Shown here piece by piece: positions 61,959 through 64,000 of a DNA stretch of 64,000 nucleotides (its first letter is position 1; each line of letters begins with the position of its first letter). The notes under the pieces were generated by a model. That model saw nothing but the letters and a program-made list of their open reading frames with translations. It was not told the origin of the DNA and did no database searches. This DNA comes from Roseovarius dicentrarchi (GTDB lineage Bacteria; Pseudomonadota; Alphaproteobacteria; Rhodobacterales; Rhodobacteraceae). The position numbers and the translations under genes were made by a program. The stretch spans positions 164,622 to 228,621 of the forward strand of contig NZ_QNQP01000004.1 of the NCBI RefSeq assembly GCF_003316635.1, in the 5' to 3' direction.

Positions 61959-63122
61959 GTGACGCCGGGCGCCCGCGTTCAGGCGGCGATCGAGGTTCTG
62001 GATCAGATCGCAAGCGGCGAGGCGGCCGAGAAGGCGCTGATCGGCTGGGCGCGGCGATCGCGCTTTGCCGGATCGGGCGACCGGGCGGCGGTGCGGGATC
62101 ACGTTTTTCAGGCGCTGCGCTGCTGGCGGTCCTACGCCTGCCTTGGTGGCGGGGAGACTGGCCGCGCGCGCATGATCGGCGCGCTGCGCGCCTCTGGCGT
62201 TGATCCAACCACGGTCTTTACCGGCGAGGGCCATGCACCTGCGCCGCTCGGCGCAGCGGAACAGGATGCGGGGTGCGTGCCGACCGGGGCGGATGCCTGC
62301 GACATGCCGGAATGGCTGCTGGAGCAGTTTCGCGCATCCTTGGCAGACAAGGCCGAAGCGAACGCGCACGCGCTCAAGCAGCGCGCACCTGTGATGCTCC
62401 GGGTAAACCGGCGCAAGACGGATCGCAGTAGCGCAATCGCCTTGCTGGCCGGTGAGGGCATCGAATGCGCTGCGCACCCTGTCGCGGATATGGCCCTGAT
62501 CGTGACGCAGGGCGCGCGGCGCGTGGCCCGCAGCGCAGCCTATCTTGAGGGGCATGTCGAGCTACAGGATGGATCAAGTCAGGCGGCCATGGACGGCGTT
62601 GACCTGCACGGTGTGACACGGGTGCTGGATTATTGCGCCGGTGGGGGTGGCAAATCGCTGGCGCTGGCGGCGCGCAGTGACGCCCGGTTTTACGCCCATG
62701 ATGCAGATCCCGCGCGCATGCAGGATCTGCCGGAGCGGGCGACGCGGGCCGGTGCGCGCATTTGCGTCCTGAAAACGCTGCCTGAACCGCCCGAGTCATC
62801 CTATGACATCGTCTTGTGTGATGTGCCCTGTAGCGGCTCGGGTACATGGCGCCGCACGCCCGAGGCGAAATGGCGCCTGACGCCCGAGCGGCTGGCGGAT
62901 CTGACGCAACTTCAATCGCAGATTTTGACCACGGCGGCGCGATACGTGGCGCCGGGCGGGCAGCTGATATACGCGACCTGTTCGGTTCTGACGGTCGAAA
63001 ACGAGGCCCGGATTGAGGCATTTTTGTCTGAAACACCCGGCTGGGTGCGGCGCAAAATCCACAGATTCGATGTGAGCGAAGGCGGGGATGGCTTCTTCGT
63101 GGCGCATCTTGGCCGCGACTGA
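61959..63122 (+). CDS. 16S rRNA m5C methyltransferase family protein (RsmB-like)
   Basis: A 387-residue SAM-dependent RNA methyltransferase. The SAM loop DYCAGGGGKSLALAA lies near residue 224, the first catalytic motif CDVPCSGSGTWRRTPEAKW near 286, and the second, IYATCSVLTVENE, near 340. Both cysteines of the m5C mechanism are present. The N-terminal part is helical, like the NusB-like domain of RsmB. The start is a GTG at 61959. The exact target base is not proven by sequence. Confidence 0.88.
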   Translation: MTPGARVQAAIEVLDQIASGEAAEKALIGWARRSRFAGSGDRAAVRDHVFQALRCWRSYACLGGGETGRARMIGALRASGVDPTTVFTGEGHAPAPLGAAEQDAGCVPTGADACDMPEWLLEQFRASLADKAEANAHALKQRAPVMLRVNRRKTDRSSAIALLAGEGIECAAHPVADMALIVTQGARRVARSAAYLEGHVELQDGSSQAAMDGVDLHGVTRVLDYCAGGGGKSLALAARSDARFYAHDADPARMQDLPERATRAGARICVLKTLPEPPESSYDIVLCDVPCSGSGTWRRTPEAKWRLTPERLADLTQLQSQILTTAARYVAPGGQLIYATCSVLTVENEARIEAFLSETPGWVRRKIHRFDVSEGGDGFFVAHLGRD

Positions 63123-63228: not shown

Positions 63229-63886
63229 TTGACACATCCCTCACTCACTCTCGAGCCGATCAAGCGCGCTGCAACGCAGATGCGCCCGCATGCGGGGCTG
63301 GTCTTCTGCTCTGCAATCCTTTTCGCGGTGACGGCCTTTTTGCTTCCTTCGGGGGTGGAGCAACAGGGGGTCATCCTTGTCGCCCTGATCCTGGGATGTT
63401 CGGCGGGATGGATATTGCTGATGTCCTGGCTGGACAGGGCAGCGACGGTCAAGGCGGCCGAGGCGCGAGGCGGTACATTTATTGATCGAACATGACGCTG
63501 CTGCCAGCATTGTCACGGGTCCGGACGGCGCGATTTTGTGTTGCAATGCGGCCGCGCAGCGCAGCTATAATGCGCAGCAGTTTGACACGCTTGGGGGGGC
63601 CTTGCAGCCGCTGATTGCCAATCCCGGCGCTCTTCTTTTTCGGCTGCAAACCCGCGCCGGCGTGCGCGGTTCGGCCCACGAGGACGTGGTCACTGGAACA
63701 GGTCACGTGCGATTGTCCGTCCATCGCACGGGTACGGGCAACCTTCTGTGGCGGATAGAAAAGTCTGCGGATCTGGCCGCACGGCGCAGTGATGCGGTGC
63801 CCTTGCCGATGCTGACAGTCGGGCGAAACAACGCAGTTTTGTTCATGAACGACGCCGCTCGCACCCTGATCGGTGCGGATTTCAAA
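63229..63886 (+). pseudogene. CckA-like hybrid sensor kinase, N-terminal part, frameshifted and truncated
   Basis: From a TTG at 63229 the first frame gives two membrane helices (about 23-43 and 47-67) and ends at 63495 shortly after EARGGTF. The next frame continues from LIEHD (63482) through a PAS-like region to GADFK near 63885. Removing the A at 63481 joins them into EARGGTFLIEHD. The protein then stops where an IS-like end begins, before the second PAS, HisKA, ATPase and receiver domains. Two helices plus PAS match CckA of Rhodobacterales, but I rely on layout and short motifs (LPMLTVG, VLFMN). Confidence 0.65.
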
Positions 63887-64000
63887 AATACCGGACAGCG
63901 ATTACGCTAATTCCCGGACAGCCGTTTCAGTAATTCCCGGACAGCTCGGGCACGGCTGATCATCTGCCTGCGATCATGTTTCGGTTCGGATAGTTTCGGT
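63887..64000. mobile_element. Probable IS21-family left or right end
   Basis: Three repeats with core CCGGACAGC start at 63891, 63914 and 63937, exactly 23 bp apart. The second and third share the longer TAATTCCCGGACAGC. Multiple terminal transposase-binding repeats are a mark of IS21-family elements. The transposase genes lie beyond the window, so the family is inferred. Confidence 0.55.

Follow-up and report, generated by a model that had tools for sequence, protein, structure and literature searches.

Two lesions in cckA and a frameshift in chpT point to recent inactivation of the CckA-ChpT relay in Roseovarius dicentrarchi

We found that the rsmB-linked cckA gene of Roseovarius dicentrarchi carries two lesions, an exact tandem duplication of 7 bp and an insertion of an IS21-type element, and that chpT is split over two frames in the same genome. 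Since cckA and chpT are both broken, the CckA-ChpT relay to CtrA is probably non-functional. The explanation which we consider probable is that the two lesions have inactivated cckA, that chpT is frameshifted, and that the relay to CtrA was lost most likely after the flagellum. On the sequence evidence, the loss of motility and of the relay is best read as recent and partly IS-driven. The DNA analysed (referred to as the window) is a stretch of 64 kb corresponding to C44:164622-228621, where C44 is the contig. The coordinates of the features are given in Table 1.

Table 1. Positions of the features in and around cckA and of chpT. Numbers without a contig name refer to the window.
Feature	Position	Strand	Remark
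rsmB	61959..63122	+	intact, upstream of cckA; order rsmB-cckA common to relatives
cckA 5' part, first frame	63229..63495	+	from the ORF list; matches the CckA of a relative in tblastn as the first of two pieces
Tandem duplication CGAGGCG-CGAGGCG, 7 bp, exact	63459..63472	+	frameshifting lesion
cckA 5' part, second frame	63482..63873	+	N-terminal PAS region; the ORF itself extends to 63910
Target-site duplication CTGATCGG, 8 bp, first copy	63866..63873	+	second copy at C6:128-135
IS21-type element, one end	63874..64000	+	to the contig end; other end is C6:1-127
chpT, split over two frames	C44:99210-99807	-	approximately 65 kb before the window, same genome

The assignment of the broken gene as the rsmB-linked orthologue of cckA, already proposed in the sequence-only reading, is supported. 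Two hydrophobic stretches in the first frame were recognized by eye as membrane helices. Thirteen loci encoding relatives of the second-frame part were collected from public genomes, and in the three inspected in full (L009, L011 and L013) cckA also follows rsmB and forms one uninterrupted reading frame (772, 765 and 781 aa, respectively). PAS matches in the second frame are weak and below the Pfam cut-offs, and no PAS domain was matched at E 0.001 by the remaining part of the gene, which is located on contig C6; in the CckA of an intact relative, PAS_8 is above the cut-off at 282-335. At the level of whole-protein families, the best two NCBIfam matches of the broken CckA are the CckA models NF046020 (516 bits) and NF046026 (430 bits), both below the cut-off of 1000 bits. 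The names of both models refer to other orders (Bruc and Caul), and the CckA of an intact relative also stays under both cut-offs, with 514 and 436 bits. A search of the genome with the CckA of a relative for another cckA revealed no intact or second close copy elsewhere, the next best match being 38% identical in the kinase and receiver part only, and the interrupted gene is the sole close cckA match in the genome. Further, the closest homologue of the part encoded on C6 (551 aa, own sequence excluded) is only 90% identical among the best 120 of 7799 homologues, and thus no intact conspecific copy was seen among these 120.

The first lesion is the 7-bp duplication. In the DNA alignment a gap of 7 bases lies opposite to it in all eight relatives. 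Past the duplication the first frame is out of frame and runs into a stop at 63493-63495. The ORFs 63229-63495 and 63482-63910 correspond to two frames of one gene, which is a single frame in the three relatives inspected, and the protein of the related genome G092 matches the two sides of the break in two different frames. This bears out the frame break that had been noticed earlier from the sequence, but not its attribution to one extra base at 63481, as there are seven extra bases, the tandem repeat which they form lying at 63459-63472. Since the repeat is exact, present in two copies and located early in cckA, its expansion and contraction could be thought of as a reversible switch leading to phase variation of the relay. 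This we hold to be hardly credible: there are two copies only, a single unit is present in each of the eight relatives aligned, and the element together with the chpT frameshift would leave the relay switched off whichever state the repeat is in.

The second lesion is the insertion, the junction of which is at 63873/63874. It had been noted before that an IS-like end cuts the gene, and this stands, since the terminal repeat recurs at nine contig ends and an 8-bp target duplication is present; the junction proposed at 63886 had to be moved. Base 64000 is the final base of contig C44, and the window stops there because the contig assembly stops. The remainder of cckA, for which a search beyond the element had been suggested, follows the first 127 bases of C6, which belong to the element; it begins at C6:128 and contains no premature stop, and CTGATCGG flanks the element on both sides, in C44 and in C6. 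IS21-family elements are known to produce short target-site duplications of 4-8 bp. A second pair of element ends, on C20 and C9, also shares a common 8 bp; for the other seven of the nine left ends, no 8-bp partner was found among the six right ends. Downstream of cckA, the gene order on C6 is unlike that of the relatives examined, and therefore the joining of C44 and C6 is based on the target duplication and on the continuity of the reading, not on synteny. In this region of C6 (L054:1857-6000) we named by eye genes for an ABC transporter ATPase and permease, an alanine-racemase-like ORF and a dnaB-like ORF.

The element is spread in the genome and forms the end of many contigs: the end at 63874-64000 was detected with 99-100% identity at nine contig ends, including the one described here, and the other end (127 bases) at six. 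The best plasmid match of the element end is in pRIdsm_01 of Roseovarius indicus (NZ_CP031599.1), with 90.6% identity over 127 bases. In this relative of the element, istA and istB are located between both types of end, and its size suggests a length of about 2.6 kb for the element in cckA. While the two genes characteristic of the IS21 family can be read in the R. indicus copy, the copy in cckA is known from its ends only, its interior being absent from the contigs examined; perhaps it lies on another short contig. The short contigs C43 and C48 (L127 and L128) contain other istB genes of the IS21 type, intermingled with genes for further transposases.

The part of cckA on C6 deserves separate consideration, since it is open from an ATG to a stop (C6:149-1804, 551 aa) and its HisKA, HATPase_c and receiver domains are all above the Pfam cut-offs. 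The insertion could accordingly have turned cckA into a gene for a shorter, cytoplasmic kinase, which would be expressed from the element or from an internal start and would have these three domains without the membrane helices and the first PAS region. The dN/dS value of 0.04 for this 3' part would fit such a product, and Caulobacter CckA constructs without the membrane part are described to show kinase activity in solution (PMC4853435). However, according to the available part of the same source, Caulobacter CckA without PAS-A is diffuse and has lower activity on membranes, and the low dN/dS is equally well explained by a recent lesion. Scanning of the first 400 bases of C6 did not reveal a sigma-70-like promoter, and neither the promoter scan of the C6 start nor RNA folding at the C6 junction gave a signal above chance. 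Moreover, chpT, the next step of the relay, is broken. A shorter working kinase is thus improbable in our opinion, and inactivation of cckA is preferred.

Searches for the downstream members of the relay, which had been suggested along with the first description of the gene, showed a frameshifted chpT and an intact ctrA. The first piece of chpT is 84% identical to residues 1-103 of the ChpT of G092 in one frame, and the second is 73% identical to residues 103-199 in another frame. In line with this, the HPTransfase domain is not contained in one frame: a frame of 140 aa matches from profile position 27 only, the N-terminal part being elsewhere. The break is located at a short run of C, a context in which an error of sequencing can be imagined. 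The ctrA gene encodes 238 aa with 97% identity to G092, and its product passes the NCBIfam model for CtrA of Rhodobacterales (NF045991) with 419 bits at a cut-off of 350. The adjoining sciP is also intact and above its own NCBIfam cut-off. A gene transfer agent (GTA) cluster is present on C66; we scanned 12 ORFs of this cluster, the scan being confined to ORFs outside the g6-g8 region, and 10 of them pass their family cut-offs, while a terminase-like ORF is below the cut-off and one short ORF has no match.

To judge whether the broken genes reflect a noisy assembly, 113 genes from 170 kb of G092 were compared at the protein level with stretches of the R. dicentrarchi genome. Matches were obtained for 79 genes, 73 of them with at least 50% identity (74.6 kb aligned). 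Among these 73, no gene except chpT was flagged as being split over two frames within a contig. The other broken gene is cckA, which was checked by hand; the comparison did not flag it because its parts are on two contigs. Altogether five genes were flagged, namely chpT, hisF (a stop before the likely start), one gene cut by the end of the stretch, and two genes with partial coverage and unchanged frame. A composition-based frame model of the window was rejected, as it labelled the 5' part of cckA non-coding and its eight same-strand switches, when inspected, resembled small ORFs or ordinary borders between genes; the comparison with the G092 proteins was used instead. A version of this comparison with stop-to-stop queries was noisy and was not used.

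These data bear on the possibility of an assembly or sequencing artefact, in which errors would account for the frame breaks and a mis-join at a repeat for the contig break. The contigs indeed end in repeats of 127 bases and no single contig spans the insertion, and the change in chpT is in a C run. On the other hand, base errors do not usually take the form of an exact 7-bp tandem repeat, the same 8-bp repeat is found on both flanks of the insertion, and just cckA and chpT are broken among the 73 genes compared. An artefact is therefore very improbable, and the exact tandem repeat and the IS element with its target-site duplication make both cckA lesions look genuine.

To what extent such losses occur in the genus was assessed in a sample of 84 genomes, the own genome included. 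Frames of 767 aa or more are present for cckA in 76 of them and frames of 195 aa or more for chpT in 81, showing that loss of these relay genes is exceptional in the genus. A match to ctrA at E 1e-80 was obtained in 81 genomes (three of these matches are partial). The cckA frame is partial in three genomes (G074, G035 and G088), and no match to a cckA orthologue was found in G071, G059 and G017, the first two of which are just 65-66% complete. Seven cckA entries with one internal stop were not counted as broken: five reach the natural end, one aligns in a single frame, and one is G043. The search for ctrA at E 1e-80 gave no match in the relative G003 (100% complete, two contigs), in which the cckA and chpT frames are of full length, nor did approximately 80 kb around its cckA yield ctrA or sciP.

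The age of the inactivation was addressed by comparison with G092. The three pieces of cckA have dN/dS values of 0.13, 0.05 and 0.04, and the two pieces of chpT have values of 0.05 and 0.20, which is inside the range of intact genes (0.11 for rsmB and 0.02-0.04 for ctrA were used for comparison); with dS of about 1 to 2, near saturation, all these estimates are coarse. For the two 5' pieces of cckA, dN on the own branch is higher than on the sister branch, with 0.108 versus 0.035 and 0.080 versus 0.023 if G072 is used as outgroup, and 0.113 versus 0.030 and 0.059 versus 0.044 with G056, in a test which is weak because of the near-saturated dS. The simplest reading is that cckA and chpT were inactivated recently relative to the species split, with no sign of long decay. 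The sequence-only reading had taken the two lesions in cckA as suggesting real decay. Both do appear genuine, and "decay" should be understood as recent inactivation, the pieces having still low dN/dS.

A possible reason for the dispensability of the relay is offered by the flagellar genes. At the start of contig C55 (L229:1-736) the same IS21-type element interrupts a flgE-type hook gene, which is followed by motB. The flgE-type gene matches the flagellar rod domain above the cut-off and the FlgE/F/G D1 domain below the cut-off. In one family search, fliF had no match in the genome at E 0.001; the same search matched four of 14 control genomes, all four above the cut-off. Because of the element in the flgE-type gene next to motB and the lack of a fliF match, the flagellar cluster beyond flgE is likely to be lost, the absence being judged from one family, fliF. 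In Rhodobacterales, the order motB-flgEKLI next to a fliFHNP operon has been described, along with sporadic losses of the flagellar cluster (PMC12363192). Our case resembles these losses in that the motB-flgE edge is kept and fliF was not found, and differs in that the upstream part of the relay is broken too, which is not reported in the accessible part of that study. According to the same source, control of the flagellum is central to what the relay does in Rhodobacterales. If the cluster beyond flgE was lost, and lost first, this would have removed the main reason to keep CckA and ChpT, and the relay would have become dispensable.

Following this explanation, no active CckA or ChpT would be made, and CtrA would stay unphosphorylated as far as the normal route is concerned. 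In the model for Rhodobacter capsulatus, unphosphorylated CtrA activates the GTA structural genes and CtrA-P is needed for maturation (PMC6363796). Accordingly modelled, the GTA structural genes of R. dicentrarchi could still be expressed, while the particles would not be matured or released normally. In Phaeobacter inhibens, the GTA cluster is silent in all three relay mutants (PMC12363192), which argues against free GTA expression and against a simple transfer of the model to this strain. CtrA may still work as a regulator in its unphosphorylated form, or it may be the member of the system that disappears last. The first of these, persistence of CtrA and SciP as a relay-independent, unphosphorylated regulator after loss of the flagellum and of both upstream relay genes, is a tentative and rather doubtful idea; such a CtrA might, for instance, hold the GTA genes on but unreleased.

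By homology, the genes described here are those of the CckA-ChpT-CtrA relay of Dinoroseobacter shibae, P. inhibens and R. capsulatus (rsmB-linked cckA, chpT, ctrA with sciP, and the GTA cluster). The strains studied in these species have an intact relay, which was disrupted by laboratory mutation, whereas in the deposited genome of R. dicentrarchi cckA and chpT are broken and ctrA and sciP are kept. Relay members are also missing to a varying degree in other alphaproteobacterial orders; for example, CtrA and CckA are present in some Rickettsiales in which ChpT was not found (PMC2877005). The absences covered in the available part of that work are old and based on orthologue searches, in contrast to the fresh double inactivation in a clade otherwise keeping the relay. 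Among the papers retrieved from the open-licence literature, none describes natural disruption of cckA or chpT in a member of the Rhodobacterales. Thus, this is a case of gene loss in a known pathway, the parts of which are known and which does not represent a new system, and the combination is of note as a natural double knockout.

The relay has been studied mostly by means of laboratory knockouts. A natural strain without CckA and ChpT and with CtrA, SciP and the GTA cluster would allow the role of unphosphorylated CtrA to be addressed directly, and it bears on the question whether the flagellum is lost before the relay. It also raises the comparative question whether cckA or chpT is broken in other Rhodobacterales without flagella. 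Two more frame breaks were observed in the genus sample, one in cckA of G072 (nine contigs; L176), which lies in a run of G and could be due to erroneous sequencing, and one in chpT of G004 (L175).
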